64,000 nucleotides of DNA from Parapedobacter luteus (GTDB lineage Bacteria; Bacteroidota; Bacteroidia; Sphingobacteriales; Sphingobacteriaceae): NCBI RefSeq assembly GCF_900168055.1, contig NZ_FUYS01000003.1, forward strand, positions 62,001 through 126,000. Direction: 5' to 3'. The notes under the pieces are model-generated. The model did no database searches. It was not told the origin of the DNA and worked only from the letters and a program-made list of their open reading frames with translations. Position numbers and translations under genes: made by a program. Below, piece by piece: positions 22,732-63,390 of the stretch (its first letter is position 1; each line of letters begins with the position of its first letter).

Positions 22732-22778
22732 TTTTTAGGAAAAGACGCACCTTGATTATTAACCATTTGACCTTAGTC

Positions 22779-23894
22779 ATGATGAAGAAAAAAACCTATT
22801 TTTCAGTGTTGGCAGCCTCCGCTGGTTGCTCGCTCCTATTGGCCACATGCCAACAACAACAGCGCCCCGCTCAATCAACCGACAGCGCCCCGCTTTTTGA
22901 GGGAGCCATATCCCAACCCTTGGTATCGCATATTTATACCGCTGACCCCTCGGCCCATGTCTTCGAAGGTAAAATTTACGTCTACCCATCGCATGACATC
23001 GATGCCGGCACGCCCGAAAACGACAATGGCGACCACTTTGACATGCGGGATTACCATGTGTTTTCCATGGACAGCGTGGGCGGCGAAGTCACGGACCACG
23101 GCGTTGCATTGAAATTGGAAGACATACCCTGGGCCGGGAGGCAGCTATGGGCGCCCGATGCAGCATACAAAAACGGGAAATATTACTTTTATTTCCCTGC
23201 CAAAGACAAGCAGGATATCTTCCGCATCGGCGTGGCTACGTCCGACAAACCTTATGGCCCTTTTGTCGCCGAACCTGAGCCCATCAAGGGTAGTTTCAGC
23301 ATGGATCCGGCCGTATTTACAGATACCGATGGCACATCCTACCTATACTTTGGTGGCATATGGGGAGGACAATTGCAACGCTGGGCTTCAGGCGAATATG
23401 ATCCGCAGGGCTCATCGACAGACCTCGAAAACGATAGCCTGCCCGCCTTGACACCAAAAATGGCCCGACTGACAGACGATATGCTGCAATTTGCTGAAGC
23501 CGTACGGGATATCGTTATTTTGGACGAAAACGGACGACCGTTGCTGACCGGCGACCATGACAGGCGCTTCTTCGAAGGCTCCTGGGTACACAAATACCAA
23601 GGCAAATACTACCTGTCGTATTCGACAGGCGATACCCATCAATTGGTATACGCTACTGGCGACAGCCCCTACGGCCCCTTTACTTATCAAGGCGTCATTA
23701 TGACTCCGGTAATCGGCTGGACCACCCATCATTCGATTGTAGAGCATGGCGGCAGGTGGTGGCTGTTCTACCATGACACCCAACTATCCGGTGGCAAAAC
23801 CCATCTCCGCAATATCAAGGCCACCGAACTGCGGTATGATGGCGATGGAAAGATCGTGACCATTCACCCGTATGGTGAGTTGAGTACGCAATAA
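22779..23894 (+). CDS. GH43 (subfamily 1-like) beta-xylosidase/arabinofuranosidase, lipoprotein
   Basis: A 371-residue five-bladed-propeller hydrolase that probably releases xylose or arabinose from xylo-oligosaccharides. It opens with a lipoprotein signal (LLLATC). The catalytic base is in HIYTADPSAHVF, the pKa-modulating Asp in FSMDPAVFTDTDG, and the general acid Glu in FFEGSWVHKY. The sequence pattern is that of subfamily 1. Its last 96 bp recur almost unchanged at 51673. ATG 22779 or 22782 are equally possible; the longer frame lacks a sensible signal. Divergent from the CE20-like gene with a shared operator. Confidence 0.88.
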   Translation: MMKKKTYFSVLAASAGCSLLLATCQQQQRPAQSTDSAPLFEGAISQPLVSHIYTADPSAHVFEGKIYVYPSHDIDAGTPENDNGDHFDMRDYHVFSMDSVGGEVTDHGVALKLEDIPWAGRQLWAPDAAYKNGKYYFYFPAKDKQDIFRIGVATSDKPYGPFVAEPEPIKGSFSMDPAVFTDTDGTSYLYFGGIWGGQLQRWASGEYDPQGSSTDLENDSLPALTPKMARLTDDMLQFAEAVRDIVILDENGRPLLTGDHDRRFFEGSWVHKYQGKYYLSYSTGDTHQLVYATGDSPYGPFTYQGVIMTPVIGWTTHHSIVEHGGRWWLFYHDTQLSGGKTHLRNIKATELRYDGDGKIVTIHPYGELSTQ

Positions 23895-26900: not shown

Positions 26901-27998
26901 GCCAATCCAAAACGTGCCCTTACTATCCTCAAATATCGACATCACGCAATTTGAACCAATCAAATTACGGTTTACCGATTTATACCCGATATAGCCAAAG
27001 CTGTTTTTATGCGTGGGCAGCAAAAATACTCCGCGTTGGTACATACCCATCCAGATGTTTCCAGCATTGTCTTCAAGGATCGAGTTTATTTTTGTTGTAT
27101 TGAAATCGAACGTCGTCATCGTCAGGTCCATGTCCTTAACCACGCCTGATTCCTCATCGTATAGTTTCATCCCCGCTCCGTTGGTAGCTATGTACAACTC
27201 ATTCCGCGAACTGACCAGCAAATCTGCCACGGCAAGATCCCCTCCGCCACTATAATGTACCCGAACAAACGCATCGTCAATCGTGTTGTATCGGAATAGT
27301 CCACCGCTCATATTGCCGACGAAGATCGTACCGTATTTGTCTTCGCATATACTGGACACCACATTATTCTGGACTTTTTTAGCTGCAAAGTAATCCGTTA
27401 GTTTTCCGTCGCCGAACCTGAATAACCCGTTGTCTTCCGTCGCAATCCAAAGATTTTCTTTTTGGTCTTCGAATATCCGGATGATCATATTGCTTGGCAC
27501 CAGCCCTTCAAGCTTAGTACCCTCCCACCGGCCAGACCTTTGTTGCAGTTCAAATATGCCGTGGCCCGACGTTCCAATAAGCATCTGGCCGTTTTTTCGT
27601 TGGACGATGGTCAAGACATGGGCAGCTATTTCCTGACCATTCTGAAGTTTAAGCGGGATATGATGAAACGAATCGCTCGCAGCATCGTAGTATTGAACAC
27701 CATTAATGTAACCTACGTACATCTGCCCCTGCTTATCCTCGGCAAGAACCAACGCCATATCGTTCAGCACGGAATGAGGGTCGTGCTCGTTGTGCCTATA
27801 CACCTTGAATTTGATACCGTCGAATCTATTTAACCCATCTTCGGTTGCAATCCATACGTAGCCACTCCGTCCCTGATGGACGTCCGTGACCATGCTGCTG
27901 GAAAGTTCCGAGTCTACAGTAAAGAGTTTACCTGATTGGGCAGACGCACACCTCGAACATAGCAATGCGGCTGATAAAAAGAAAATGTGTCGGAACAT
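23958..27998 (-). CDS. Hybrid two-component system regulator (HTCS), XusR-like
   Basis: A 1346-residue one-protein signalling system that senses oligosaccharide in the periplasm and activates its PUL. In order: signal peptide (residues 1-20), two seven-bladed propellers of Reg_prop repeats (about 25-690; e.g. GYVWIATEDGLNRFDG), a Y_Y_Y domain (about 700-785), one membrane helix (WMYALVTIMISVAIA), histidine kinase with INIAHEIRTPLT, an ATPase domain with GTGIGLYLAKQL, a receiver (VIVDDDLE, phospho-acceptor Asp in LIVSDVMMPGMDG, Lys in YLVKPF) and an AraC-type HTH at the C-terminus. All catalytic residues are present. It closes the SusCD-GH10 operon, 73 bp after GH95, where XusR sits in known xylan loci. 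Confidence 0.93.
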   Translation of the reverse strand: MFRHIFFLSAALLCSRCASAQSGKLFTVDSELSSSMVTDVHQGRSGYVWIATEDGLNRFDGIKFKVYRHNEHDPHSVLNDMALVLAEDKQGQMYVGYINGVQYYDAASDSFHHIPLKLQNGQEIAAHVLTIVQRKNGQMLIGTSGHGIFELQQRSGRWEGTKLEGLVPSNMIIRIFEDQKENLWIATEDNGLFRFGDGKLTDYFAAKKVQNNVVSSICEDKYGTIFVGNMSGGLFRYNTIDDAFVRVHYSGGGDLAVADLLVSSRNELYIATNGAGMKLYDEESGVVKDMDLTMTTFDFNTTKINSILEDNAGNIWMGMYQRGVFLLPTHKNSFGYIGYKSVNRNLIGSNCVMSIFEDSKGTFWIGTDNDGLYALGPDGGSSRHYGCRGGVRSVPSTIMSIYEDSYGDLWIGSYSDGLAKFNPHTGQSTYLTELVDKNGDNVQRIYGLREDKEQRLWIASMGSGLFCLDLKSGTIRNFSAVDGTVYRPDGNYLPNDWINCLLLSRNNKLYIGTFDGLACLDLENENFVTAFGTNRLLSNTVVYSLHDDDKGHLWAGTSRGLVCLNIATLEMNIFDMDNGLPSNLICAVEGGPNGDIWVSTNRGIAKMDVSESRFLNFYAGDGLQGNEFMTKVSLAAKNGDLYFGGIHGVTYFRPGEIHIQNKKRIVNIVDFYVRDKAVRKGMKSGRYAIVDTAVNHAQTFHLDYRDNSFSVEFSTMDFNDSERVSYVYSLNNNEWLALRPGNNRLAFDNLEAGEYRLRIRARSNDTFSDIKEARIIIHPVWFQSTLAKWMYALVTIMISVAIAKAYRNRRRIQQQMQVHQQAEAVNEAKLQFFINIAHEIRTPLTLIISPLKKLIENDGDGKRGHLYAIMNRNARRMLDLVNQLMDIRKIEKRQMTLRFERVEMNQFTRAVCLLFEEQLDAKDIRLEIDCPESELFAIIDPRHFDKILINILSNACKFTPLGGTIRVSLRSEFIGMDATEYLTIAITDSGQFINEDEKERIFECFYQSPHHRDHHPNGTGIGLYLAKQLMEMHSGTIGVENVAGEGCRFQLQLPIGDVSQIPVFSPTHFGTTDRIRITPIADSDQDEMKHRKSSKIVIVDDDLEICDYIRSEFESFYTVVTYHNGEDAYKGILKDTPDLIVSDVMMPGMDGMTLCGRIKSCPLVRHVPIILLTAKAEESDTEDGFDAGADAYLVKPFYMTVLLKTAKSLIRNRELVKNSEREAQFQGEFISKVKLKSSDEKLLEKVHRIIDRNLNESRLSVEMIASEIGISRVHLHRKLKELTGLTTRDLIRNIRLKQAAELITHKGLSVSEVAYAVGYADANTFSVAFKQLYGVSPTAYYTTNDV

Positions 27999-30538: not shown

Positions 30539-32221
30539 TTATTGGCCGGTTAACGCTTCGGCAAAAGCTGCATAAGCCGGCTTCCTGACATACCCTTCCG
30601 TCCACAATCCAATCGGCTCACCCGCCCGCCAGCTTGAACCTTGGGGACTATCCAGCGGACTCCAGACCGTAATGCCGTAACGCTGTGCCGGAGGAATCAG
30701 CTCAAAATACTTTTCGACCACGTATCGGTACATCTCCGCCTGTGCTTGATAATCTTGCTCGGTCGCCTGGGCTGTCGGCACGCCCACACCAATGTCAAGT
30801 TCCGATATTTTTATCAACTTCCCTGTAGCGGCCAACAGTTCGAACATCTCTGCTATCCGCTCCTTGTCATTGGATGTGCTGATATGCATCTGCGTACCTA
30901 TTCCATCTACCCGTGCTCCCTGACTTTCGATGTATTTTGCATATTCAATCAGGCCCTTGCACTTATCCAGGCTTGATTCCAGGCCGTAGTCGTTGATGAA
31001 CAGCAGGTCACCCGGCTTGCCATACTGCTCCGCCAACTTAAAAGCTACTACGGCATAATCCGCTCCTAAATAGTCCTGCCAGTAAAACTCGTCGCTGGCC
31101 ATGTCCGTTTTTCCCACGCCTGTTTTCAACTGATAAGGATCCGGCCAGTCTGACATGGGCTCATTGACCACATCCCATGCGTGTACATGGTCCTTCGCGA
31201 CTTCCATCATGCCCGCTATCCAGGTTTCCAAAGCCGTTGTCAAAATCTCGTTCTTTTCCTCGGGGGTCTTTTCAATGATTTGATCGCCCACTCCACCGAA
31301 GCCTTCTCCGTACGCTGACACGCCTCTGGTCGATCCATTCCCCCATCCCGCCCATCCTTGGTCGGTCCCGCTCTCAAAATCACCGTTTGCAATCAAATTT
31401 GAAGCACTGTTTTTAACGGTTAGCGACACATTGTCGATATACACCGTACCCACATAGTCGCCAAAACTGATTACAAGCCGGTTGCGGTCGCCTTTGGTTG
31501 TAGTAGTCGTAAATTCATATTCGTGCCATGCCGGACTTACCGCGAAAGTGCCGAAGCTATTGGACGAATAATCCGACGTAGACTGGACTTCAGCACGTAT
31601 AGTCCCTGCTTCCGTGGCCTTTACGGCAAACTTCAGCACGTATTCCTGATTGTTTTCCAAATTCGGCAAATCATACGCTACCTGTGCTTCCCAGAAGTTT
31701 ACCGCAGACTGATTGGTAAATGTATACGCATAGCCGGCATCTCCTCCGCCGCCCGCCTCATCAGTCCCAGGAATGACCGTGGGTTCTATCAGCTTATTGA
31801 GGTAAGCGGCATTTTGATTGACATGCCAGCACAGCGTATGGCCATATACGGATAAGCCTGCCGCGTTGGCCATCGCCAAGAAACCAGCCACGTCCGACAG
31901 GGCAAGGCTGCCGTCGGCCTGTACCACTGCGCCGTGTTTCATTGCATAGCCCAGGGTTATCTCGTCAAAATTTCTATTCATCAGCCGGTACATCACCCCT
32001 TTTTGGACATAGCTGGAAAGGGAAGTCGCCCCCCCTAATTTGAACTGGTTGTGGACGCTTCTATCGATATACGACTTTAGCGCATCGTATGAATCAATAT
32101 CCTCCTGCAGGACCACGCTCTCGGGCTTAACTGCATGGAAGGCAAGTGGCTCATACTCATTACAAGCGGCTGCCATGAACAACGCTATTGCCGGTAAGCC
32201 CATTTTACATAGTTGGTTCAT
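30539..32221 (-). CDS. GH10 endo-beta-1,4-xylanase with inserted CBM-like module, lipoprotein
   Basis: A 560-residue surface-type xylanase resembling Xyn10C of Xus loci. Lipobox ends at Cys20. The GH10 barrel is split: first part residues 40-155 ([11 protein letters not shown]), then an inserted beta-sandwich region (about 160-315), then the rest (315-557). Acid/base is Glu354 in WDVVNEP and nucleophile Glu474 in ISELDIGV. The insert reads as the later part of a CBM4/22-like module ([10 protein letters not shown]... to IDNVSLTV) followed by the opening motif of another ([11 protein letters not shown]), so it may be shortened relative to the tandem CBMs of relatives. It is 24 bp after the DUF1735 gene. 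Confidence 0.92.
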
Positions 32222-50405: not shown

Positions 50406-51542
50406 ATGAAAAAAATGAAGACAGTCCATCTCCGTTTTATCCTATGTTTAGGAAGCCTCGTATTTAACACTTACGCCGCACGTTGTCAAGCCGTACAGAC
50501 CGACAGGATTCCATCACTTAAAACCATATTCCAAGATGACTTTTTAATAGGCACCTGCCTGAACACGAGCCAAATAGCAGGCAAAGACAGTGCCGAGTCC
50601 AACTTGATCGAGCAGCAGTTCAGCGCCATTACGCCGGAGAATATCATGAAGGCTCACATCCTTCATCCTGCTTGGAATCGATTTGATTTTGAACTCGCTG
50701 ACAAGCTGGTGGCCTATGCAGCCAAGCATCGCTTGAAAGTGAATGGACACACCTTGATATGGCATAGCCAATTGCCGGACTACATACGTCAGATAAATGA
50801 CGTCGACTCTGTTCGGCAGTATTTCGTAAACCATATCGAAACGGTCGCCAGCCGCTACGACGGCCTGATCGAATCATGGGATGTCGTCAACGAAGCACTG
50901 AATGAAGATGGTACCCTGCGGAATTCTATTTTTCTTGAAAAGCTCGGTAAAAATTACATCATTGAAGCGTTCCGGCTTGCTCAAAAGGCGGCACCAAACA
51001 CTAAATTATATTATAACGACTATAATATCGAACAGCCCCAAAAACGTGCAGGGGCTATTTCACTAATCAAATCGATACAAGCTGCCGGTGTACGGATCGA
51101 CGGTGTCGGGATACAGGGGCATTGGCGGGCCGGTGATGTTCCAATGGAAGATATCGAAGAGAGCATACAGGAGTTCAGCGCATTGGGTATCGAAGTGATG
51201 TTTACGGAGCTCGATTTAAGCGTATTACCCAATCCGTGGGATAGCAATATAGCCGATATTGGTCGGAAGGCGGCATACCGTGCCGAAATGGATCCCTATT
51301 CGGGCGGCCTGCCCGATTCCATCCAACACGTGCAAGCCCTTGCGTATGAATCCCTTTTCCGGCTGTTTATCAAATACCGGGATAGCATCAGCCGAATCAC
51401 CTTTTGGGGTGTTAGCGATGGTCAGTCCTGGTTGAATAACTGGCCTGTTCGTGGACGGACCAATTACCCGTTATTATTCGACAGACAGTTTAAACCCAAG
51501 GCTGCGTTTTACCGCGTAATTGCGGCAGGGTCAGTAAACTAA
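50406..51542 (+). CDS. GH10 endo-beta-1,4-xylanase
   Basis: A 378-residue single-domain GH10 that cuts xylan or xylo-oligosaccharides inside the chain. A hydrophobic N-terminus (LRFILCLGSLVFNTYAA) serves as signal peptide. Visible motifs: AITPENIMK, VNGHTLIWHSQLP, acid/base Glu163 in WDVVNEAL, GVGIQGHWRAG and nucleophile Glu268 in MFTELDLSVL. Unlike the GH10 at 30539 it has no inserted module and no lipobox, so a periplasmic role on imported oligosaccharides is likely. ATG 50415 is an alternative start. Divergent from GH43 with a shared operator. Confidence 0.93.
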   Translation: MKKMKTVHLRFILCLGSLVFNTYAARCQAVQTDRIPSLKTIFQDDFLIGTCLNTSQIAGKDSAESNLIEQQFSAITPENIMKAHILHPAWNRFDFELADKLVAYAAKHRLKVNGHTLIWHSQLPDYIRQINDVDSVRQYFVNHIETVASRYDGLIESWDVVNEALNEDGTLRNSIFLEKLGKNYIIEAFRLAQKAAPNTKLYYNDYNIEQPQKRAGAISLIKSIQAAGVRIDGVGIQGHWRAGDVPMEDIEESIQEFSALGIEVMFTELDLSVLPNPWDSNIADIGRKAAYRAEMDPYSGGLPDSIQHVQALAYESLFRLFIKYRDSISRITFWGVSDGQSWLNNWPVRGRTNYPLLFDRQFKPKAAFYRVIAAGSVN

Positions 51543-51546
51543 AAGA

Positions 51547-51660
51547 GGCTATCCGCATTACACGCCCGCACCAACGTTATTATCGCCCGTACCATGGGAT
51601 AAGTAATCGTTCCGGGTCCTCATCCAGAAAGGTCTATATCGGCTTACCCTGGCCGACAGG
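51547..51660 (-). pseudogene. Fragment of a SusD gene
   Basis: Read on the minus strand this gives TFLDEDPERL in one frame and NNVGAGV in another, separated by an indel and stops. The intact SusD 0.8 kb away (51850-53784) has LTFLDEEPDQAI and SNVGAGI in the same order and spacing. Only about 40 codons remain. It is a decayed paralogue, not a copy of recent date. Confidence 0.6.
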
Positions 51661-51672
51661 CAAGCTATTAGC

Positions 51673-51779
51673 ACTATCCGGTGGCAAAACCCATCTCCGC
51701 AATATCAAGGCTACCGAACTGCGGTATGATGGCGATGAAAAGATCGTGACGATTCACCCGTATAGTGATAGCCAATAGC
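51673..51779 (+). pseudogene. Duplicated 3' end of the GH43_1 gene
   Basis: Bases 51673-51768 match 23783-23878 of the GH43_1 gene at 92 of 96 positions; the match ends abruptly on the left and runs, with a 6-nt deletion, to a stop codon at 51777-51779. The encoded tail is LSGGKTHLRNIKATELRYDG plus a shortened end. No upstream part of a GH43 gene is present, so it is a non-functional fragment. Confidence 0.85.
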
Positions 51780-51794
51780 CGCACCTAACAAAAC

Positions 51795-51828
51795 GAAAGC
51801 CGCTCCAACAAAGGAGCGGCCCGCTTTC
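51795..51828 (-). terminator. Terminator of the third SusCD operon
   Basis: Perfect stem GCCGCTCC/GGAGCGGC with AACAAA loop, extended by GAAA/TTTC flanks; on the minus strand it is followed by a T-rich stretch, 22 bp after the SusD stop codon. Confidence 0.8.
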
Positions 51829-51849: not shown

Positions 51850-53784
51850 CTAATTATATCCTGGATTTTGATAAGTTTCTCGATCGCCTTCCATGGCATC
51901 GAGCTGAGATCGCGGTATCGGACGCAGGTAATGGTAGGGTTGGATGCTGCGTGTCACCGTTATCGGCGTATGGTCGCCGATATTGGGGCCACAGATCTCA
52001 TACACGCCAGCCAGCTCCTCCCATTTCTGTGTACGCACCAGATCATACCACCGATAGCCTTCGCCGTAATACTCGCGCGAACGTTCGGCAAGAATGTAAT
52101 TGATATCGATCGTTGCCGGCGTCCCAGCCACCATGGCGGCGCTGTTGTCTGCCACCTTTTCCGTATTCCCGTTGTTGTCCCAGCGCCATTTTCCGGCCCT
52201 TGCACGGATAACGTTGATGAGATCCCGTGCGTTACGAGCGCCCGACGCACCCTTGACGGCCGCTTCAGCCGCAATAAAATAGAGCTCCGAGAATTTAGCG
52301 ATATTGAATGGGCGAGTGCTCGCTGCGTTCGGTTCTCCCAGCCCATTGCCGTTGTCCGTGCGGTAGGGTCCGAGCTTCCATAGCCCCGGATAAACCCGCC
52401 GGCTGATTCCCCGAGGTGATATCACAAAATCACTCCGTCCGGGCAATATCCCTGCGCCTACATTACTATTATACATTGAATTGGAATAGTCAATGGCTTG
52501 GTCCGGCTCTTCATCCAAAAAGGTCAGGATGGCATCTCCGGGGCTGACTGGTGCGTAATTCACGTTGTAAACCGGGCCACTGACGCCGGCTTTATTCCAA
52601 TTCCCACGGTAAACGGTGGTAAATGTACCATCGTAGCGCGAATCGTTTGTCTTGTCGGCAAACGTGTTGGTTATCGCTCCGATGGTGGGGCTCATCCGTA
52701 CCCAAGGCCGCCCCAACGCCTGAACAGCCTCCCGCTGGACTGAACTCACAGCCGTCCACGCCGAATTCGACGAACTGCTCCGGATTTCGGTATAATTCCA
52801 GGTCATCATCCAACCGGCGAAATTCTCTGTCCCTTCGCCGTTGCTATACGTCAAGCTGCTCCCATTATAAAACTCACTGGTCTCCGTATGGTCGGCATAC
52901 AGGAGCAATTCATTGTTGCGATCATTCGGCCCCAAATTGACATCGTAGAATGTCTCCTGTAAACCGAAGGGACCGGGGTTGTCAATGGCTTCCGTCGCGA
53001 TATCATAGGCTTGCTGGAAATACCATTGGGCGTCATGTCCATCCGGATCGGTCCGATCCGTTTCCGGATAGGTGGGGATGTTGTTTGGGTTTTCCAGCCA
53101 CCAGGCATACGTCAAATACGCTTTTGCCAAGTAAAGCCGGGCAAGTGTTTTGGTTGCACCACCTGTTACACGACCTGCATCCGGCAAATCGTTTACGGCA
53201 ATGCGCAGATCCGGGAATATTGCCCGGGTGTACACCTCGGGTACCGTATTGCGCGCCGAAGTTCTGGAAGGATTGGTATTGAATGCCAGCTCACCCGCCC
53301 CCAGATCCAGCGGTACCCCGCCAAAAGTCTGCACGAGCATGAAATAGTCAAACGCCCGGAAAAATCGTGCCTCGGCAATCAGGGCATCCGAGACCGTCTC
53401 CATCTGGGCGGCATGCTCAATGATGCCGCTTGCCGTATTGATGTTGCTGTAAACCACATTCCACAGCACATCGGCCCGGCTATTGTTGGAATTGAGTTCT
53501 GCGCGCCCACTCAAGTCCATGGCCAGAAAATTGTCGTCTGCTTGCTGGCCGTACGTCACTTCATCCGTACCGGTGAGCGTAGCGTTGTAATAATAGGCAT
53601 TTCCGTAGATATAACGTAAATGCGCATACATCGAGGTGATACCGCCCTGGATACCCTTTTCCGTTGTGAAGAACCCAGGCTCATAGATACTACGTGGCTG
53701 TTCATCCAGGATTTTGGAACATGCCGACAGGAACAGCACGATTGCCGCCGTTCCGATATAGTTGATATTACGTGTATATTTCAT
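51850..53784 (-). CDS. SusD-family glycan-binding lipoprotein (third pair)
   Basis: A 644-residue SusD homologue with lipoprotein signal IVLFLSAC (Cys22) and mature start SKILDEQPRSIYEPGFFTTE. SusD hallmarks are the TPR-like EARFFRAFDYFMLVQTFGGVP and the C-terminal ILAERSREYYGEGYRWYDLV, ending ETYQNPGYN. It partners the SusC whose gene ends 11 bp upstream. There is no HTCS next to this pair; a LacI-family gene is divergent from it. Confidence 0.93.
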   Translation of the reverse strand: MKYTRNINYIGTAAIVLFLSACSKILDEQPRSIYEPGFFTTEKGIQGGITSMYAHLRYIYGNAYYYNATLTGTDEVTYGQQADDNFLAMDLSGRAELNSNNSRADVLWNVVYSNINTASGIIEHAAQMETVSDALIAEARFFRAFDYFMLVQTFGGVPLDLGAGELAFNTNPSRTSARNTVPEVYTRAIFPDLRIAVNDLPDAGRVTGGATKTLARLYLAKAYLTYAWWLENPNNIPTYPETDRTDPDGHDAQWYFQQAYDIATEAIDNPGPFGLQETFYDVNLGPNDRNNELLLYADHTETSEFYNGSSLTYSNGEGTENFAGWMMTWNYTEIRSSSSNSAWTAVSSVQREAVQALGRPWVRMSPTIGAITNTFADKTNDSRYDGTFTTVYRGNWNKAGVSGPVYNVNYAPVSPGDAILTFLDEEPDQAIDYSNSMYNSNVGAGILPGRSDFVISPRGISRRVYPGLWKLGPYRTDNGNGLGEPNAASTRPFNIAKFSELYFIAAEAAVKGASGARNARDLINVIRARAGKWRWDNNGNTEKVADNSAAMVAGTPATIDINYILAERSREYYGEGYRWYDLVRTQKWEELAGVYEICGPNIGDHTPITVTRSIQPYHYLRPIPRSQLDAMEGDRETYQNPGYN

Positions 53785-53795
53785 GGCTATTTCGT

Positions 53796-56700
53796 TTAAA
53801 AAGCTAGGTTAACACCAAACAGGAAGCTGCGTGTTGCGGGCGCATTCGTACCGATGGTCAGCAGGCGGCTTTGGTAAGTCGTGGTTACCGCGGCGTTTTC
53901 ATCGCCAAACGAGTTGGTTTCGGGATCCATGCCCGTCTCCCGGTGAAACGGCGATAACAGGACAAACGGATTTTGCACCATTACGTAACACCGCAATTGG
54001 TCGATGCCTACCCTGTCCATCCAGTTGTGCTGACCGAAATTATAACCCAGTGACAGCGTCCGTATCTTCAGGTGCGACGCATCAAAATACCCTAGGGTGC
54101 TTCCGTACCGCGGGTTGTCACCGCTGATGGCACCACCCGGCGCGGGATAACGGGCACCGGTGTTTTCCGGTGTCCAATAATCCACCTGTACATTATTTCG
54201 GCGTCCGCTCATCAGGTTGAGGTAACCGGATGACGAATGCAAGGTACTGATGAGCTTACCACCGCTTTGGAACATACCTACGGCACTTAAGTCGACATTC
54301 TTATACGCGATACGGGTGTTAAAACCACCTTGAAAATTCGGCTGCATGCTGATGATCTGCCGGTCATCGGGCCCGATTGCCCGCACGGGAGTCCCATCTG
54401 CATTATAATCGCCGGTGTACCTCACCTTAATCATGCCCACGTTGCCGCCTGGTTCGAGGATATCCAGGTATGGATCTCCTTCCTGCCAAAGCCCGATGTA
54501 CTCATGGTCAAAGACGACGTCAATGGGGTGGCCCACAAACCACCAGTTGTTTTCATCCCGATCCTGTCCCGACGACAAGGCCACCAGCTTATTTCGGTTG
54601 CCATAGATGTTTATGCCGGCCTCCCACGTCCAGCCATTACGGTCTTCCAGTATGACGCCATTAAGTGAAAGCTCAAGGCCTTTGTTCTGTGTTTGCCCAA
54701 CGTTGGCCGTATAGCTGCCCACCCCTGCGGTACTCGGCAGGTTCACATTCATCAGCAGGTCTTTCGTTTGGGTGGAGTAATACTCCAACGTGCCGGACAG
54801 GCGGCTATTCCAGAACGCGAAGTCCACTCCATAATTCCAGGTCTCTGAATATTCCCAACCCAACCCCGCATTTGGCAGTTGAGAAACGTAATACCCAACA
54901 GCATAGTTGTCATTACCAAAATTGTACGGCCTCGTATTCAAACGTCCCAGTGTGGCATAAGGAGCAATCGCCTGATTGGAGGTCTGCCCATAACCCACAC
55001 GGAGTTTCAACATATCGACAAACGAAACATCACGCATAAATGCTTCCCTGCCGATATTCCAACCGGCAGAGATCGCCGGATAGGTATGCCATTTGTGGCT
55101 GGTTGCCAGCCTCGAGGACCCGTCCGACCGCAAGGTAGCCGACAGCATATAACGGTCGTCATAGGAATACATCACACGGCCCATCCACGACATCAGCCCC
55201 CATAACTCATATTGCTGGCCGGCGGGGTCAATCGTAATTTCGCCAAGCGCCTGCCCGAGGTTATAAAACTGGAACGCATCGGCGGGGATATCCCGCGCAG
55301 CCATTGCCGAGCGGTTGAATTTATTCTGCTCGGCAGAATAAAGGCCGGTTATGTTAATATGGTGTTTTCCCGCGAACGTCCGATCATAACTCAGCAGGTT
55401 TTCGACGACCCAGTGATAGGTGTGCGAGTTGCTGATGGAAGCGGTTGATGGTGTCGTGGGGTTGTTACTATTTATCCCCTCTCCGGTATAAGCCCCACCA
55501 TTGCTCTGGCGATAGTCGAGGCCGAGGTTAATGCGGTACTTCAGCCCCTCAACCCAAGGGACGCTCACTTCGCCGTATAGCGAGTTGTACGTGGCATAAG
55601 CCCGCGTCTCATTCAACCACTGGTCTTGCACACTCTCGATGATCTCTCTGGAAACTGTCCACGGATCGTCCAGGGGCATGCGTATGGTCCGTTTCCATGT
55701 ACCGTCTTCGTTGTACGGATTGGCAATGGGCGACATGCTTAAAACACTGTACAGTCCCACTTGAGAGCCTGCCGTAACGTTGTAATTATTATTGGTCGTA
55801 AATCCAATCCGGAAATAATCACCCAGCTGCTGATCGACCGTACCGCGCAATGAGATACGGCTGTATTTTTGCGTGGGTACCACGCCTTCATCCTGGAAAT
55901 AGCCTCCACCGAAGTTATAGTTGCCCCGTTCAGTCCCTGCTGAGACGCCTACATCCTGACTGATTACGTTCCCTGTTCGGTAAAACAGGTCCTGCCAATC
56001 GGTGTCTACGTCATCGGATTCATCCAAGCCATTCTGGTATTGGCCAGCTGCCGTCCGAAGCGCCACAAATTCCGGCCCATTCATCATGGGATATTTGGAA
56101 AAAACATTCTTTAAGCCCTGAAAGCTGTTGTAAGACACCCGTGCCGGTTGTCCGCTCTGTCCTTTGTTGGTCGTCACCAGGATAACCCCGTTGGCGCCGC
56201 GTGATCCATAAATGGCGGTAGCAGAGGCATCCTTTAGGATATCTATACTTTTAATATCATTCGGGTTGATGTCTCCGATTGATCCCGGAAAGGGAATACC
56301 ATCAAGGACGACCAACGGATCGTTGCTCGCATTCAAAGAGCGCGTGCCGCGGATGCGGATTTGCGTGGTTGCACCCGGTTGGGAAGAGGTTTGCGACAAT
56401 TGCACTCCTGGCAAACGGCCCTGCAACGCCTGCGAAATATTGGCTGATGGCACATCGCGCATCTGATCACCGCCAATGGTCGCAACGGAACCCGTAACCG
56501 CTTCTTTCCGTTGGGTACCGTATCCAACCACGACCACTTCGTCCAGCGCACTGGCTTCCGCCACCATCGTGACGGTCAGTTGCTGGTCGGCACCCCCCAC
56601 CTTGATTTCTTGCGCAGTGTATCCAACATAGCTGAATATCAATGTACTGTTTGCCGGAACACGGATGGTGAAACGGCCTCCGTCGTCCGTGGATGTGCTG

Positions 56701-56897
56701 GCCGTGCCAGCACTCGACCGTATGGAAACACCGCTTAGCACTTCGCCCGTTTCATCAACGACAACTCCGGATATTCCCACGCCGTCGTCCTGTGCGATAA
56801 CATATGCCGAACAAAAAAATAATAGCAACGATACACAAGCGGCCCTTATCGAATATTTTCGCTGCCGCCGCAATCCCGATTTGTATACGCTTATCAT
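53796..56897 (-). CDS. SusC-family TonB-dependent transporter (third pair)
   Basis: A 1033-residue outer-membrane importer. Signal peptide about 18-35 (CVSLLLFFCSAYVIA), CarboxypepD_reg-like domain (about 40-115, ISGVVVDETGEVLSGVSI), TonB-box-like DEVVVVGYGTQRKE, plug with VVLDGIPFPGSI and LKDASATAIYGSRGANGVIL, barrel to the C-terminal FGVNLAF. It is divergent from the LacI-family gene; a minus-strand promoter with its -33 element inside the LacI operator precedes it. Xylo-oligosaccharides are the probable cargo by context. Confidence 0.94.
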   Translation of the reverse strand: MISVYKSGLRRQRKYSIRAACVSLLLFFCSAYVIAQDDGVGISGVVVDETGEVLSGVSIRSSAGTASTSTDDGGRFTIRVPANSTLIFSYVGYTAQEIKVGGADQQLTVTMVAEASALDEVVVVGYGTQRKEAVTGSVATIGGDQMRDVPSANISQALQGRLPGVQLSQTSSQPGATTQIRIRGTRSLNASNDPLVVLDGIPFPGSIGDINPNDIKSIDILKDASATAIYGSRGANGVILVTTNKGQSGQPARVSYNSFQGLKNVFSKYPMMNGPEFVALRTAAGQYQNGLDESDDVDTDWQDLFYRTGNVISQDVGVSAGTERGNYNFGGGYFQDEGVVPTQKYSRISLRGTVDQQLGDYFRIGFTTNNNYNVTAGSQVGLYSVLSMSPIANPYNEDGTWKRTIRMPLDDPWTVSREIIESVQDQWLNETRAYATYNSLYGEVSVPWVEGLKYRINLGLDYRQSNGGAYTGEGINSNNPTTPSTASISNSHTYHWVVENLLSYDRTFAGKHHINITGLYSAEQNKFNRSAMAARDIPADAFQFYNLGQALGEITIDPAGQQYELWGLMSWMGRVMYSYDDRYMLSATLRSDGSSRLATSHKWHTYPAISAGWNIGREAFMRDVSFVDMLKLRVGYGQTSNQAIAPYATLGRLNTRPYNFGNDNYAVGYYVSQLPNAGLGWEYSETWNYGVDFAFWNSRLSGTLEYYSTQTKDLLMNVNLPSTAGVGSYTANVGQTQNKGLELSLNGVILEDRNGWTWEAGINIYGNRNKLVALSSGQDRDENNWWFVGHPIDVVFDHEYIGLWQEGDPYLDILEPGGNVGMIKVRYTGDYNADGTPVRAIGPDDRQIISMQPNFQGGFNTRIAYKNVDLSAVGMFQSGGKLISTLHSSSGYLNLMSGRRNNVQVDYWTPENTGARYPAPGGAISGDNPRYGSTLGYFDASHLKIRTLSLGYNFGQHNWMDRVGIDQLRCYVMVQNPFVLLSPFHRETGMDPETNSFGDENAAVTTTYQSRLLTIGTNAPATRSFLFGVNLAF

Positions 56898-57082
56898 ACT
56901 GTAGGATTTTATTGGTTTAATAATTTAGTTAATTGCGCTTTATAGAAGTCCATACAACCCGCTTCTCACCTGCACCGTTCCAACGTTGGCATATTCACCT
57001 TTTACAACGACCCTACCATTGAAAATAAAAATGGGTAAGGTTTATAATGTCCGCATGGACTTTGGTTATCTCTTACTGTGGG

Positions 57083-57113
57083 TAAAGATAAAAACAAAAA
57101 TTACTTTATGCAA
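57083..57113 (-). promoter_or_regulatory. Candidate promoter for the third SusCD operon
   Basis: Minus strand: TTG (57113-57111, inside the operator), 20 nt, TATCTTTA (57090-57083, one mismatch). The layout is the same as at the CE20-like gene. Confidence 0.4.
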
Positions 57114-57122
57114 CCGATTGCA
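57109..57122. promoter_or_regulatory. LacI-type operator in SusC/LacI intergenic region
   Basis: TGCAACCGATTGCA, the exact reverse complement of the site at 22718-22731. It covers the -33 elements of both divergent promoters, which predicts autoregulation of the LacI gene and control of SusCD. Confidence 0.65.
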
Positions 57123-57146
57123 AAAAAATTTTTTTTCTTATTTTAG
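57118..57146 (+). promoter_or_regulatory. Candidate promoter for the LacI-GH67-GH115 genes
   Basis: TTG at 57118-57120 within the operator, 18 nt, TATTTTAG at 57139-57146 (one mismatch); the ATG is 35 bp downstream. Confidence 0.45.
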
Positions 57147-57181
57147 CCGAACCATTTTGTGAACCGTATTTTACCAAACAG

Positions 57182-58213
57182 ATGAGTACGCCCAACGAGA
57201 AAAAAGAAGTAACCATTTATGACATTGCAGAGGCATTGCACATATCGGCAGCCACGGTAAGCCGGGGGCTTAAAAACCATCCGGCCATAAAACAGGCCAC
57301 CAAAGACAAGATTTTTGCCCAAGCCGAGCGCATGGGCTATCGCTTCAATACATTTGCACGCAACCTGCGAACAAAACGTACCTATACAATCGGTGTGATT
57401 GTGCCACGGTTGAATAGCATGTTTATGTCTGATGTCATCGCAGGTATGGAAAAGGTTTCGAACGAAGCAGGCTATGAATTAATCATCAGCCAATCGTTGG
57501 AGACCATGGAAAAGGAAATGAAAAACGCCGTCACGATGTTCAACAACCGGGTAGACGGCCTTTTGGTATCCTTAGCCTACACCACAACTGGAATTGACCA
57601 TTTCAAACGCTTCATGGACAAGAATATTCCCTTGATTTTCTTTGATCGTGTCTTTGAACATCCCAACTGTCCGAATATCGTTATCAATAACCATAAGGCA
57701 GCTTACGAACTGACGTCCTACCTTATCCAACAAGGTGCAAGGCGTATCATGCATATTGCAGGCAATCTCAACCGGAACGTCTATAGCCAGCGCTTCAAAG
57801 GATACAAAGATGCCCTGTCTGACGCCGGCATTCAATTCAAAGAAGACTGGCTTATCGTCAACAATCTGAGCGCGGAAGATGGTATCCGTACGGCTAAACA
57901 CATCTGTGCACTGACGGAACGGCCTGATGCCATCTTCGGGGCCAATGATACTTGTGCGGTGGCCTGTATGCAGGAATTGAGACGTAATGGCGTATACGTT
58001 CCGAAAGATATGCTCGTTGCAGGGTTCAACAACGACCCGATCGCTACGGTCGTTGAGCCCAACCTCACCACGGTCAATTATCGAGGGCACGAAATGGGAG
58101 AAGTGGCGGCTAGGACACTCATCAACCTGCTGAATGAAGGCAGCGAACAACAAACCGCTGCAACTATCGTGCTGCGCCATGAATTGATTATACGGGATTC
58201 TACCCGACGATAA
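57182..58213 (+). CDS. LacI-family transcriptional regulator
   Basis: A 343-residue repressor of the LacI/GalR family. The helix-turn-helix is VTIYDIAEALHISAATVSRG (about residues 10-29), the hinge helix FNTFARNLRTKRT (about 55-67), and the effector domain begins YTIGVIVPRLNS. GRRRIMH-like and FGANDTCAVACMQEL blocks are normal for the periplasmic-binding-protein fold. It is divergent from a SusCD pair and 30 bp upstream of GH67. A matching operator lies in its own promoter and in two other divergent regions of this locus, so it is the likely controller of those genes. The inducer is probably a xylan-derived sugar; that is inference. Confidence 0.92.
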   Translation: MSTPNEKKEVTIYDIAEALHISAATVSRGLKNHPAIKQATKDKIFAQAERMGYRFNTFARNLRTKRTYTIGVIVPRLNSMFMSDVIAGMEKVSNEAGYELIISQSLETMEKEMKNAVTMFNNRVDGLLVSLAYTTTGIDHFKRFMDKNIPLIFFDRVFEHPNCPNIVINNHKAAYELTSYLIQQGARRIMHIAGNLNRNVYSQRFKGYKDALSDAGIQFKEDWLIVNNLSAEDGIRTAKHICALTERPDAIFGANDTCAVACMQELRRNGVYVPKDMLVAGFNNDPIATVVEPNLTTVNYRGHEMGEVAARTLINLLNEGSEQQTAATIVLRHELIIRDSTRR

Positions 58214-58243
58214 TAATTAAATTAGTCATGAAATAAACCGATT

Positions 58244-60403
58244 ATGAACATCACTATTCGCATTTTACTGTTTCTTGCCTGTGTGTGCTGCCACAATCTT
58301 CCCCTTGCGGCCCAATCCGGTTATCGACTGTGGCTGGATTTCAAACCGCTACCTACCGAAACGGCCGCCAACTACAAACAGCAGCTCAGAGCCTTACTTT
58401 TCCCGGTGACAAGTCAAACAGACAGTGTCGCCAGGCAGGAGCTGCTCACCGCGGTGAACGGTTTGCTGGGAGAATGCCTAAAATCGGTCGACACGCTCCA
58501 GGAGACCGGCACGTTGGTCATAGGCACACCTGCTACCCTCCCCTGGCTGGCGGGTGAAGCCATAGCGGAGCATCTCCGGCACGTCGGTGACGAGGGATAT
58601 GGTATCCATCATACTGCTATCAAAGGCAAGCCTACGACGGTCATCCTTGCCAATACAAGCAGCGGCATATTATACGGTGTCTATGCATTTCTTGGTGTCT
58701 TGCAACGCGGTGAGGACATCTCCCAGCTAGCCACCACTACCCAACCCAAGATTGCTTTGCGTCTGCTCAATCATTGGGATAACCTCGACCGCACTGTGGA
58801 ACGCGGCTATGCAGGCTTCTCCCTGTGGGACTGGCATCGCCTGCCGGGGTACCGCGACCCGCGCTATACAGACTATGCCCGGGCCAATGCCTCCATCGGC
58901 ATCAACGGCACCGTGCTCAACAACGTCAATGCCAACGCGCTCATGCTCACAGCACCTTATCTCGAAAAAGCAGCCACGTTAGCCGACATCTTTCGGCCCT
59001 ATGGTATCAAGGTATACCTGTCTGCGCGGTTCAGCGCACCCATTGAACTGGGCAGCCTTGCTGACGCCGACCCGCTCAACCCCGAGGTGCAGCAGTGGTG
59101 GAACGACAAAGTAGCCGAGATTTACCGCTATATTCCCGATTTTGGTGGCTTCCTCGTGAAGGCCAATTCCGAAGGGCAGCCCGGCCCGCAAAACTACGGA
59201 CGCAGCCATGCCGAGGGAGCCAATATGTTAGCCGATGCGCTGAATCCGCACGGCGGCGTGGTCATGTGGCGGGCGTTTGTCTATGAAGATACGGAGCCCG
59301 AAGATCGCGCCAAGCAGGCTTACAACGAATTTAAACCCCTTGATGGCCAATTCCGTGACAACGTCATCGTCCAAGTCAAGAACGGCGCCATCGACTTCCA
59401 GCCGCGCGAGCCATTTCATCCGCTCTTCGGCGCCATGCCCGGCACGCCGCTGATGATGGAATTTCAAATCACACAAGAATACCTCGGTTTTGCCACCAAC
59501 CTAGCCTATTTGGGCACATTATTCAGTGAAACACTACTGGCCGACACGTATGCCGATGGCCCACATTCCACCGTTGCACGTGTAATTGATGGCTCATTAA
59601 CCGGGCAAAAGCTCACAGCCATGGCGGGCGTAGCCAATACAGGTACAGCCATCAACTGGACAGGGCATCCCTTTGCCCAGGCCAACTGGTTTGCCTATGG
59701 AAAAATGGCTTGGGACCCCGATGCCGATGCCGGTACTATTGCCGAAGATTGGCTGCGCCGCACCTTCGGCAACGATGCTTCCCTTATCGGTACTTTGCTG
59801 CCGATGATGATGCAGTCGCGCGAGACTGTCGTCAATTACATGACCCCCCTTGGCCTCCATCACCTGATGGGATGGAGCCACCACTATGGCCCCGGTCCCT
59901 GGATCAAGGACAAACAACGGGCCGACTGGACATCGGTTTATTACCACCAAGCTGGCAAGGACGGCATTGGTTTCGATCGGACGGCCTCAGGCAGTGGAGC
60001 CCTCAGCCAATATGCGCCCGAAGTACAGGCACTGTTTGCAGACCCGCAGACCTGCCCCGATGAATACCTCCTTTGGTTTCATCACCTCCCATGGGATTTC
60101 CGGATGAAATCCGGCGAAACACTCTGGGAAGCACTCTGCGGCCACTACTATGGCGGCGTGGAGGAAGTAGCCGATATGCAAGCCGTATGGGAAGCACAGC
60201 GCGGCAAGGTCGATTCGACGGTCTTTCAGGAGGTCAGTGATTTGCTGGCCATCCAGCACCAGGAGGCCACCCTATGGCGCGATGCCTGCGTGTTGTACTT
60301 CCAGCAATTTTCGGGCATGCCCATCCCTGATGGATTGGAGCAGCCGGAACATCCGCTGGAATACTACGAAAACCTGCAATTCCATTTTGTGCCGGGTATA
60401 TAA
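58244..60403 (+). CDS. GH67 alpha-glucuronidase
   Basis: A 719-residue GH67 enzyme that removes (4-O-methyl-)glucuronic acid from the non-reducing end of xylo-oligosaccharides. Signal peptide (ILLFLACVCCHNLPLAA), N-terminal beta domain to about 160, then the barrel: general acid Glu310 in KANSEGQPGP, and Asp384 and Glu412, whose 28-residue spacing equals that of the two carboxylates in the Cellvibrio enzyme. Helical C-terminal domain from about 480. It lies 30 bp behind the LacI gene, in an apparent operon with GH115, with a GH10 remnant between. Confidence 0.95.
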   Translation: MNITIRILLFLACVCCHNLPLAAQSGYRLWLDFKPLPTETAANYKQQLRALLFPVTSQTDSVARQELLTAVNGLLGECLKSVDTLQETGTLVIGTPATLPWLAGEAIAEHLRHVGDEGYGIHHTAIKGKPTTVILANTSSGILYGVYAFLGVLQRGEDISQLATTTQPKIALRLLNHWDNLDRTVERGYAGFSLWDWHRLPGYRDPRYTDYARANASIGINGTVLNNVNANALMLTAPYLEKAATLADIFRPYGIKVYLSARFSAPIELGSLADADPLNPEVQQWWNDKVAEIYRYIPDFGGFLVKANSEGQPGPQNYGRSHAEGANMLADALNPHGGVVMWRAFVYEDTEPEDRAKQAYNEFKPLDGQFRDNVIVQVKNGAIDFQPREPFHPLFGAMPGTPLMMEFQITQEYLGFATNLAYLGTLFSETLLADTYADGPHSTVARVIDGSLTGQKLTAMAGVANTGTAINWTGHPFAQANWFAYGKMAWDPDADAGTIAEDWLRRTFGNDASLIGTLLPMMMQSRETVVNYMTPLGLHHLMGWSHHYGPGPWIKDKQRADWTSVYYHQAGKDGIGFDRTASGSGALSQYAPEVQALFADPQTCPDEYLLWFHHLPWDFRMKSGETLWEALCGHYYGGVEEVADMQAVWEAQRGKVDSTVFQEVSDLLAIQHQEATLWRDACVLYFQQFSGMPIPDGLEQPEHPLEYYENLQFHFVPGI

Positions 60404-60418
60404 TAACCAATACCAGCT

Positions 60419-60676
60419 ATGAAAAGGACTACCATTGCTCATCGGTTTACTGGCGTTGGCCAGCACATCGTTCGTCGGCTCCCGGCAGGAGAAAGGGCTA
60501 AAAGATTATTATGCAGACTATTTTCCTATTGGCGTAGTCGTCACCCGAGAAGTCCTGTCGGCGAGGAAGACAAAAATATCCCGATACACGGCGCGGGGTT
60601 GCAGGCACCCTGGTCCATTTTTGAGCCATCAGAAGACCACCACAGAAGATACATCTTACTTCGGCGCACCGGCTAA
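60419..60676 (+). pseudogene. Degenerate GH10 xylanase gene
   Basis: An ATG at 60419, 15 bp after GH67, starts MKRTTI; a one-base shift near 60435 leads into IGLLALASTSFVGS and GLKDYYADYFPIGVVVT, the usual opening of a secreted GH10. The frame then returns to that of 60419 at about 60560 with KNIPIHGAGLQAPWSIFEPS, a GH10 block that in the intact enzyme at 50406 (VRIDGVGIQGHW) lies about 180 residues further on. Both catalytic glutamates are missing. It is a dead gene with a frameshift, an internal deletion of about 0.5 kb and a lost 3' end. Confidence 0.75.
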
Positions 60677-60721
60677 ACAGCGGGGCAAAATCAAGGAGAT
60701 GACTAAAACAAGAACAACACA

Positions 60722-63307
60722 ATGATGAGGGACTTTCTATTGACCGTATTACTGGCAGCGATCGGCTTACAGGCACTGGCTATTGACCATAAGGGAATAA
60801 CGTCCACGCAATTGTCTCCTGACCGGTTTACATTAATTGAAAACGCCACGCCGGGTACGATTTTGATTGATGAAAACGAAGATGGGGGGGTAATGATCGC
60901 TGCCCGGAACCTCCAGGAAGATTTTGGCAGGGTATCGGGCAACCGTGCAACCCTTGTCTTCCGGCCGGATAGCAGCCGGTTGATCATCGTGGGCACATTG
61001 AAGAGCCGTTACATCAACGAGTTGATCACGGAAAAGAAGATCGACGGCACTGAATTGAAAGGCAAAAACGAAAAATACCTGATGACGGTAGTCGACCATC
61101 CATTGCCGGGAGTAAAAGAAGCGCTGGTGATTGCCGGCAGCGACAAACGGGGGGTGATATACGGCATATACGAACTGTCCGAACAGATAGGCGTGTCGCC
61201 GTGGTACGACTGGGCGGATGTCCCGGTAGTCCTCCAGCAAAATTTGTCCATCGCCCGAGGCAGCTATACAGCGGGAGAACCGGCAGTGAAATACCGAGGT
61301 ATATTCCTGAACGACGAAGCGCCTTGTTTGACCACTTGGGTACTCAATACGTATGGAACCCAGTACGGCGACCACCGGTTTTATGCCCGGGTGTTCGAAC
61401 TGATCCTCCGTTTGCGCGGCAACTTCCTCTGGCCGGCCATGTGGAGCTGGAGCTTCTACGCGGACGACCCGGAAAACAGCAAGACAGCCCATGAGATGGG
61501 GATCATCATCGGAACCACCCACCACGAGCCGATGGCGCGCAACCACCAGGAGTGGGCCAGGAAGCGAAACGAGTACGGCGCGTGGGATTACAGTACCAAT
61601 CAGGAGGTGATAGACCGCTTTTTCCGCGAGGGGATCGAGCGGGCATCAGGTACCGAAGACCTGATCACCATCGGTATGCGCGGCGATGGCGATACCCCTA
61701 TGGGCGCCAAGGAAGGCGAAGACCACAAGTATGTGCCGCGTGATGAGGATAATATTAAACTTCTGGAGAAAATCATCAAAAACCAGCGGCAGATTATCCA
61801 AGAGGCCTCTGGTAAGGCACCCGAAAAAACTCCCCAGGTTTGGGCTATATACAAGGAAGTGCAGCGTTATTTTGATATGGGGCTGCGGGTGCCCGACGAT
61901 GTTATCATGCTGTTGTGCGACGACAACTGGGGTAACGTGCGCCGCCTGCCGAGGGGAGAAAAAGAACGGAACCACCCCGGAGGTTGGGGGATGTATTACC
62001 ATTTCGACTACGTAGGCGCGCCCCGCAATACGAAATGGTTGAACGTCACCCCTATCCAGAACATGTGGGAACAACTCCAACTGACCTACGATTATGGCGT
62101 GGATAAAATTTGGATCGTGAATGTGGGCGACCTGAAACCTATGGAATACCCGATCACGCTTTTCCTGGATATGGCATGGAATCCGGGCAAGTTCACCGTG
62201 GATAACCTGCTGGACCATACCCGGGAGTTCTGCGCCCAGCAATTCGGGGAAGAGCAAGCCGAAGAAGCGAGCCGTATCCTGAACGTATACAGTAAATACA
62301 ACGGACGCGTCACGCCGGAGATGCTAGACCGCCACACCTACAATATCGAGACCGGGGAGTGGAAAAAAGTATCCGATGAATACGTCAAACTGGAAGCGGA
62401 AGCTTTGCGCCAGTATCTCACGCTCAAGCCGGAATACCGGGATGCCTATCAGCAACTGATCCGCTACCCGGTGCAGGCCATGGCAAATCTGTACGAGATG
62501 TACTATGCCCAGGCCATGAACCATAAGCTGTACAAGGAAAACAATCCACAGGCAAACGCCTGGGCCGACAAGGTGGAGGCGGCGTTCAAGCGAGACAAGG
62601 AGTTGAGCCATCAGTACAACAAGGTGATGGCCGGCGGCAAATGGGATGGCATGATGATTCAGAAAAAGATCGGATACACCTCGTGGAACGATAACTTCCC
62701 CGAAGATACCCTACCGGAAATACACCGCATTGCGGACCCCGAGAAAGCCGTTGGCGGTTATCTGTTTACCGGCAAGGATGATGTCGTAGTAATCGAGGCG
62801 GAGCATTATTTTGAAGCGAAAGACGCCCCGGAAGCCAAATGGACGGTTATTCCTCATATGGGACGTACGTTGAGCGGCATGGCCGTGATGCCTTATTCGA
62901 AACCGATTGGCAGCGCTTCCCTTTCCTATAAGATGCAGATCCCGAAAGACGTCACCGAGGTGACGGTACATGTGGTCGTCAAATCGACCTTGGCGTTCCA
63001 TGATGACGAAGGCCATGAGTACACCATAGGATTTGAGGGCGGTGAGGAAAAAACCATAAACTTCAATGCCGACCTGAACGAAAAACCGGAGAATATCTAT
63101 ACGACATTTTACCCAACAGTGGCCCGCCGGGTGGTCAGGAAAGAAGCGAAGCTCCCGCTGCCCGCTACGGCCGACGGGGTACAGACATTAATCGTAAAGC
63201 CATTGGACCCTGGTATTGTATTTCAAAAAATAATCGTTGATTTTGGTGGCTATCAGGATACGTACCTTTTTATGGACGAGTCGCCCAACCAGCGAATTGC
63301 CCCATAG
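60722..63307 (+). CDS. GH115 alpha-glucuronidase
   Basis: GH115 enzymes remove (4-O-methyl-)glucuronic acid from internal positions of polymeric xylan, complementing GH67. The 861-residue protein has a signal peptide (LLTVLLAAIGLQALA), an N-terminal GH67-like beta domain (IVGTLKSRYINEL, SDKRGVIYGIYELSEQIG), the catalytic barrel (KYRGIFLNDEAP, FLWPAMWSWSF, GTTHHEPMARN, LLCDDNWGNVRRLP, WIVNVGDLKPMEYP) and the C-terminal beta domain (EAEHYF, YSKPIGSASLSYKM). Length is typical. It is the last gene of the LacI-GH67 set. Confidence 0.94.
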   Translation: MMRDFLLTVLLAAIGLQALAIDHKGITSTQLSPDRFTLIENATPGTILIDENEDGGVMIAARNLQEDFGRVSGNRATLVFRPDSSRLIIVGTLKSRYINELITEKKIDGTELKGKNEKYLMTVVDHPLPGVKEALVIAGSDKRGVIYGIYELSEQIGVSPWYDWADVPVVLQQNLSIARGSYTAGEPAVKYRGIFLNDEAPCLTTWVLNTYGTQYGDHRFYARVFELILRLRGNFLWPAMWSWSFYADDPENSKTAHEMGIIIGTTHHEPMARNHQEWARKRNEYGAWDYSTNQEVIDRFFREGIERASGTEDLITIGMRGDGDTPMGAKEGEDHKYVPRDEDNIKLLEKIIKNQRQIIQEASGKAPEKTPQVWAIYKEVQRYFDMGLRVPDDVIMLLCDDNWGNVRRLPRGEKERNHPGGWGMYYHFDYVGAPRNTKWLNVTPIQNMWEQLQLTYDYGVDKIWIVNVGDLKPMEYPITLFLDMAWNPGKFTVDNLLDHTREFCAQQFGEEQAEEASRILNVYSKYNGRVTPEMLDRHTYNIETGEWKKVSDEYVKLEAEALRQYLTLKPEYRDAYQQLIRYPVQAMANLYEMYYAQAMNHKLYKENNPQANAWADKVEAAFKRDKELSHQYNKVMAGGKWDGMMIQKKIGYTSWNDNFPEDTLPEIHRIADPEKAVGGYLFTGKDDVVVIEAEHYFEAKDAPEAKWTVIPHMGRTLSGMAVMPYSKPIGSASLSYKMQIPKDVTEVTVHVVVKSTLAFHDDEGHEYTIGFEGGEEKTINFNADLNEKPENIYTTFYPTVARRVVRKEAKLPLPATADGVQTLIVKPLDPGIVFQKIIVDFGGYQDTYLFMDESPNQRIAP

Positions 63308-63390
63308 GAAAAGCTACCGAGAGGTATTAAAAATTATCCATCCAGCACCAAACCGTTCGTGGATCTTCCGTACATTAGCGACCGACCCAA

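Follow-up and report, generated by a model that had tools for sequence, protein, structure and literature searches.

Why does the end of a glycoside hydrolase gene occur twice in a xylan cluster, 28 kb apart and in the same orientation, and does the second copy do anything where it lies? The question arises in a stretch of 64,000 nucleotides from Parapedobacter luteus (contig NZ_FUYS01000003.1, positions 62,001 to 126,000), referred to here as the window. Direct repeats that bracket such a block could be a means of excising it, a trace of how it was inserted, or debris. We find that the observation is sound and its explanation fairly ordinary: the second copy is most likely what is left of a gene where modules meet, in a xylan cluster that has recombined a great deal. 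The features concerned are collected in Table 1.

Table 1. Features of the window that bear on the origin of the GH43_1 fragment
Feature	Position	Strand	Remarks
Intact GH43_1 (Glyco_hydro_43)	22752-23894	+	380 aa from TTG; first ATG 22779; repeated part 23783-23878
HTCS regulator, chimeric	23958-27998	-	residues 1-892 identical to G002 at 890/892, the rest at 273/450
Tract exchanged recently with a G002-like species	25324-48480		99.4% identical to G002
GH10 gene	50406-51542	+	between GH43c and SusD in the window; absent there in G002
Scrap of SusD gene interior	51565-51672	-	aligns to 52451-52551 of the intact SusD; directly adjacent to the GH43_1 scrap
5'-truncated copy of the GH43_1 3' end	51673-51779	+	96 bp at 96%, diverged tail, in-frame TAG
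Hairpin with T-rich tail, terminator-like	51797-51822	-	same strand as the SusD transcript; z -4.35 when the + strand is folded as RNA
SusD-like gene, oriented towards the fragment	51850-53784	-	partner SusC 53796-56897

Results

A repeat search of the window returned exactly the pair that a sequence-only reading had described as a near-copy of the GH43_1 3' end. Bases 23783-23878 and 51673-51768 are equal at 92 of 96 positions (96% identity), lie in direct orientation, and are spaced 27,890 bp apart. Within the window, the search reported no other direct repeat of 40 nt or more and no inverted one. With the GH43_1 3' end as query, the whole genome (4.83 Mb, 28 contigs) yielded the two repeat copies and no third, and the E-value of the second site, 8.2e-39, excludes chance. 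The mismatches, at 23822, 23848, 23861 and 23874, leave shared exact runs of 39, 25, 12, 12 and 4 bases; two are silent, one changes Gly to Glu, and one changes Gly to Ser, so that the nonsynonymous share is 2/4, with n = 4 too few for a test of constraint. Self-comparison of the corresponding stretches from five congeners (388.8 kb) turned up just one further repeat at the thresholds of 40 bp and 85% identity, 51 bp long and located in G007. Thus, repeats of this kind are uncommon around the cluster.

The fragment keeps the reading frame of GH43_1, and a TAG stop at 51777-51779 closes it, the tail reading HPYSDSQ rather than the HPYGELSTQ of the intact gene. It comprises the last 107 bp only, with neither the start nor the catalytic part, as fits a 5'-truncated gene remnant (a pseudogene copy), and no open reading frame of at least 20 aa with an ATG, GTG, or TTG start is present in the GH43_1 frame within the scar. 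That nothing else of GH43_1 is found at the second site was likewise borne out, adjacent alignments reaching only chance-level scores. The sole match that might have extended the fragment, 25 bp near 23124, was rejected as being at chance level. The fragment sits 130 bp behind the GH10 gene and points at the SusD gene; the intact GH43_1 points toward the HTCS regulator.

Orthologues of GH43_1 adjoin the same esterase in two congeners, G003 (86% amino acid identity) and G007 (83%). Compared with the ends of the congeners' genes, the fragment agrees at 71/96 positions with G007, 63/96 with G003, 57/96 with G002, and 51/96 with G008, as against 92/96 with the gene in its own genome. Being far nearer to the latter than to any of the four, it probably arose in this lineage, which we take from these alignments as its most likely origin. 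The intact gene has a peculiarity of its own in the repeated part, where identity between the window and G003 drops from 722/881 over the gene to 63/96. The drop ranks 132 of 4560 orthologue pairs (those kept of 4851, the dropped pairs having too few aligned bases) and third of 222 close pairs, a weak hint that a foreign 3' end may have been swapped into the GH43_1 of the window or of G003. The mean drop at the GH43_1 C terminus over all pairs is 6.6 points, and the window-G003 mismatches are dense only from about 23819. The drop may reflect a fast-evolving C terminus, and because that terminus evolves fast in general, a chimeric intact GH43_1 is kept as a hint only.

Remnants of two genes lie in the gap between GH10 and SusD, and the GH43_1 fragment is one half of this small graveyard. 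The other half, a piece of the interior of a SusD gene, also aligns at the corresponding place in the SusD of G003 and, partly, in that of G007, and 0 of 300 dinucleotide shuffles of 51543-51672 equalled the score of the real sequence with the SusD of the window, of G003, or of G007. The scrap agrees with G003 at 74/105 positions, with the SusD of the window itself at 67/107, and with G007 at 62/105, with a weaker local match to the SusD of G002 and no significant match to that of G008. No donor was found among the SusDs compared, the best being G003 at 70%, and the scrap would thus appear to derive from some SusD other than these. Two unrelated scraps set edge to edge are not the product of a single repeat-mediated event. 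Just beyond the fragment, the hairpin in Table 1 resembles a terminator of the SusD transcript.

Neither the GH10 gene nor the junction pointed to a source. The best match to GH10 in the search for a close donor was 66%, in G004, and in the 10 further genomes whose GH10 match reached E ≤ 1e-120, no GH43_1 or SusD relative lay within about 1.5 kb downstream; in G008, a SusD lies upstream of GH10. Searched with the junction region, 6 of 301 genomes of the family (own included) gave any match, three of them short and in the GH43_1 part, and in the 300 other genomes no match spans the junction of the two scraps; a search of six genomes (own included) likewise gave no relative with a match across it.

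Between the copies lie the genes for the HTCS, GH95, a GH10-CBM protein, a DUF5627 protein, two SusD, two SusC-like proteins, an esterase, GH127, two GH43, and GH10, which confirms the content earlier ascribed to the interval (HTCS, a Xus-like core, a CE1-like esterase, GH127, GH43s, and GH10). A Pfam scan of 19 genes of the window between 20724 and 60403, of which 13 belong to this interval, and of 60722-63307, small ORFs apart, hit no integrase or transposase family, and the window holds no tRNA gene. We therefore rejected the idea that the copies are att-type repeats of an integrated mobile element.

Much of this interval has a history distinct from that of its surroundings. At 25323/25324, the identity of the window to G002 rises abruptly, from about 70% to about 100%, and it drops back beyond 48480; the match lies on contig C23 of G002, and the flanks are about 68-72% identical. 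From 25330 to 48498, 23,020 of 23,165 aligned columns agree, about 460 G002-only bases near 31760 being uncounted. Both ends are very sharp, one inside the HTCS and one inside GH43b, and they mark the recent breakpoints of an exchange between species that took in most of the xylan cluster. At 31759-31764, G002 has these approximately 460 extra bases inside the GH10-CBM gene (30539-32221), either a deletion in the window or an insertion in G002. Elsewhere in the window, the region of the GH115 gene (60685-63319) is 94.4% identical to G002 as against 70% over 51889-60477, a second exchanged tract, apparently older.

The exchange, which ends inside the HTCS, made that regulator chimeric. The break falls at the end of HisKA (HisKA 828-891, HATPase from 940), the front being 99.8% identical to G002 and the HATPase/receiver/AraC part 60.7%, so that the protein pairs an exchanged sensor with a different output half. 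The repeat copies lie 1.4 kb and 3.2 kb outside the tract. As the tract ends elsewhere, in the HTCS and GH43b, we rejected the repeats as ends of the recently moved segment; an older insertion bounded by them is possible. The divergence of the copies (4/96) exceeds that of the tract from G002 (145/23,165; Fisher p = 0.003), and since constraint differs between fragment and tract, this result only hints that the repeat and the exchange were separate events.

A SusC at 67-87% identity to that of the window is carried by 4 of 8 congeners, namely G002, G003, G007, and G008, and the content between GH43_1 and SusD differs among them. In G003, the nearest relative, synteny ends within the left copy, at 23839, and is picked up again at 51851, which lies 72 bases past the stop of the fragment. 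The site is not an empty junction there; it carries about 8.9 kb of other genes and no close HTCS, the order being esterase, GH43_1, GH10-CBM, a glycan-binding protein, another SusD and SusC, and then the SusD and SusC. G007 has esterase, GH43_1, HTCS, a truncated GH95, GH43, other genes, SusD, and SusC. In G002, a GH43_1 relative and GH10 are on the other strand, and the HTCS and the block through to GH43c are followed by SusD and SusC. G008 is compact, with a GH43_1 relative and GH10 in line with SusD, on the other strand relative to the window. The 96-bp repeat is absent from all four. The proposal that relatives might show a locus lacking exactly the interval between the repeats failed among these four congeners, none of which has the pre-insertion state in which the 3' end of GH43_1 would directly face SusD.

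G007 does hold a parallel of another kind. A 51-bp copy of a SusD 3' end (G007:C9:80698-80748) is 90% identical to 83226-83275, in direct orientation (L042:10698-10748 and L042:13226-13275), with approximately 2.5 kb of extra DNA between the orphan and the intact SusD ends. By eye, the orphan reads on the minus strand to a stop, QNPGYN-stop against QNPGY-stop, and a hairpin-like sequence lies beside it. It resembles the scar of the window, in that the end of the gene is retained, the 5' edge is ragged, and extra DNA separates the two copies. The GH95 of G007 is cut to its C-terminal part (an ORF of 215 aa, L042:6325-6972), which is another scrap in the same interval.

Discussion

At a probability of roughly 60%, we read the fragment as an inert orphan 3' end, a scar left by illegitimate or one-sided recombination during remodelling of the cluster. 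That the cluster has been rebuilt by recombination, as the sequence-only reading supposed, is upheld by the sharp-ended tract, 99.4% identical to G002, and by the turnover of content among the congeners. A gene end at a ragged SusD junction, the turnover between GH43_1 and SusD, and the parallel in G007 all fit recombination of the illegitimate or one-sided sort. In such a process, the last ~107 bp of a GH43_1 allele would have been orphaned, its 5' side joined to a piece of another SusD and its 3' side to the intergenic region of the resident SusD, with the terminator of that gene. Rebuilding of the cluster at the GH10 end may have combined homologous pairing at one site with end-joining at a second; alternatively, a truncated donor molecule may have recombined through one crossover. 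Either route would push the resident 3' end aside. The fragment has what an orphan 3' end should have, in that it keeps an in-frame stop, meets the SusD scrap at an abrupt 5' edge, and has a SusD analogue in G007. Most likely, it does nothing behind GH10, and the cell probably gains nothing from it.

Several observations count against a scar of this origin. The intermediate, a GH43_1 3' end facing SusD, was seen in no relative compared. A single donor ill fits two scraps of which one is 96% (GH43_1) and the other 63% (SusD) identical to the resident genes. About 600 bp of SusD 3' end are absent between GH10 and the SusD scrap, which requires a further deletion. Finally, an in-frame stop within a few codons can come by chance.

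Other explanations have been weighed against these data. In a draft genome of 28 contigs, a short-read assembler might have misjoined at the repeat. The longest exact run that the copies share is 39 bp, and the word lengths usual in assembly exceed this; both copies lie in mid-contig, the adjacency of GH43_1 and HTCS recurs in G007, and SusD and SusC continue in order, all of which makes an artefact scarcely credible. A biological source for the fragment could be a second, complete GH43_1 that once followed GH10 in an operon and later lost its 5' part. The fragment does follow GH10 on the same strand, and a GH10 with a GH43_1 relative behind it in the same direction recurs elsewhere (e.g. L111, L112, L113, L116, L127, and L129). 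However, the relatives of GH43_1 that lie near GH10 in G002 and G008 reach no more than 61-63% identity to this gene, against 96% between the fragment and the gene on the esterase side, and a SusD scrap intervenes between GH10 and the fragment; we regard such an operon remnant as improbable. Less doubtful, yet still unlikely, is that the segment from HTCS to GH10 was inserted beside GH43_1, which would then have faced SusD, by a single crossover or one-sided homologous integration that duplicated the gene end. The direct orientation, a gene end on the SusD side, and a truncated end on the side of the block are the leftovers that such an insertion should produce, and duplications of 109-950 bp at the end of a homologous gene are described for sequenced single-crossover plasmid integrants of E. 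coli (PMC3240628). The limits of synteny in G003 and its want of a close HTCS at this place agree with an insertion, as does the SusD pair of G007, a smaller case of the same pattern that brackets its own extra DNA. These are the parts of the earlier suggestion (that the repeat reflects how the segment entered) that stand. On the other side, the G003 site is filled with other genes, the recent tract does not end at the repeats, and a compact pre-insertion state in the orientation of the window occurs in none of the four congeners, G008 being compact with strands that differ. Moreover, the order GH43_1-HTCS-GH95-GH43-SusD exists in G007 with no repeat, and G002 has the HTCS through GH43c to SusD, so the order is probably older than a repeat diverged by 4%, unless it was lost and regained.

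A further proposal is that the copies are active now, with RecA-dependent recombination excising the 27.9-kb block and so switching the xylan cluster on and off. After a crossover between the copies, the GH43_1 frame would indeed stay open and end in a slightly altered tail, and this part of the sequence-only reading holds. The 39-bp exact run is longer than the minimal homology of 23-27 bp given for RecA/RecBC and shorter than the 44-90 bp given for RecA/RecF, according to a Salmonella study (PMC12074656). The same source describes identical direct repeats of 113 bp that flank an excisable locus of 2558 bp, and it states that distance and mismatches lower the rate of recombination between repeats (PMC12074656); here, there are four mismatches and a span of 28 kb. 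No recombinase is among the Pfam hits in the interval, the excision junction is found in no relative searched, and the assembly contains the undeleted form only, in which a minority form would be invisible. We consider present-day excision very improbable, and equally remote the milder version in which the copies still recombine rarely, so that some cells would lack the 27.9-kb HTCS/Xus block and keep an intact GH43_1 with the flanking SusCD. If true, excision would amount to an on/off switch of a polysaccharide locus.

As the scar that we take it to be, the fragment is a small, readable trace of the rebuilding of xylan clusters in these Bacteroidota. Gene-end scraps lie at module junctions in two congeners, GH43_1 in the window and SusD in G007, and the scrap in the window adjoins a 23-kb tract that passed between species with little change and made a chimera of the regulator. 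A literature search on PUL recombination with Pedobacter and xylan found no paper, and the closest points of comparison come from other systems. The repeats at Salmonella wzy resemble ours in length (113 versus 96 bp) and in direct orientation. They are, however, identical and about 2.6 kb apart, with deleted forms seen, whereas ours are 96% identical and 28 kb apart, with no deleted form known (PMC12074656). In Vibrio T6SS effector arrays and in Rhs loci, a 3' end is displaced downstream of an incoming module, for which the authors tentatively invoke homology-facilitated illegitimate recombination (PMC5361080). The downstream shift of a gene 3' end is shared with our locus. In contrast, those orphans form arrays that retain complete immunity genes, and here a single 107-bp scrap has no usable start and shows no sign of use (PMC5361080). 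The mosaicism of Bacteroides PULs is attributed to interspecies homologous recombination, with crossovers placed in conserved node genes that flank the PULs (PMC8845570). As there, content in our cluster varies between conserved neighbors and transfer between species is inferred; unlike there, the exchanged tract ends inside two genes of the PUL itself, the HTCS and GH43b, with the scrap-bearing junction beside it (PMC8845570).
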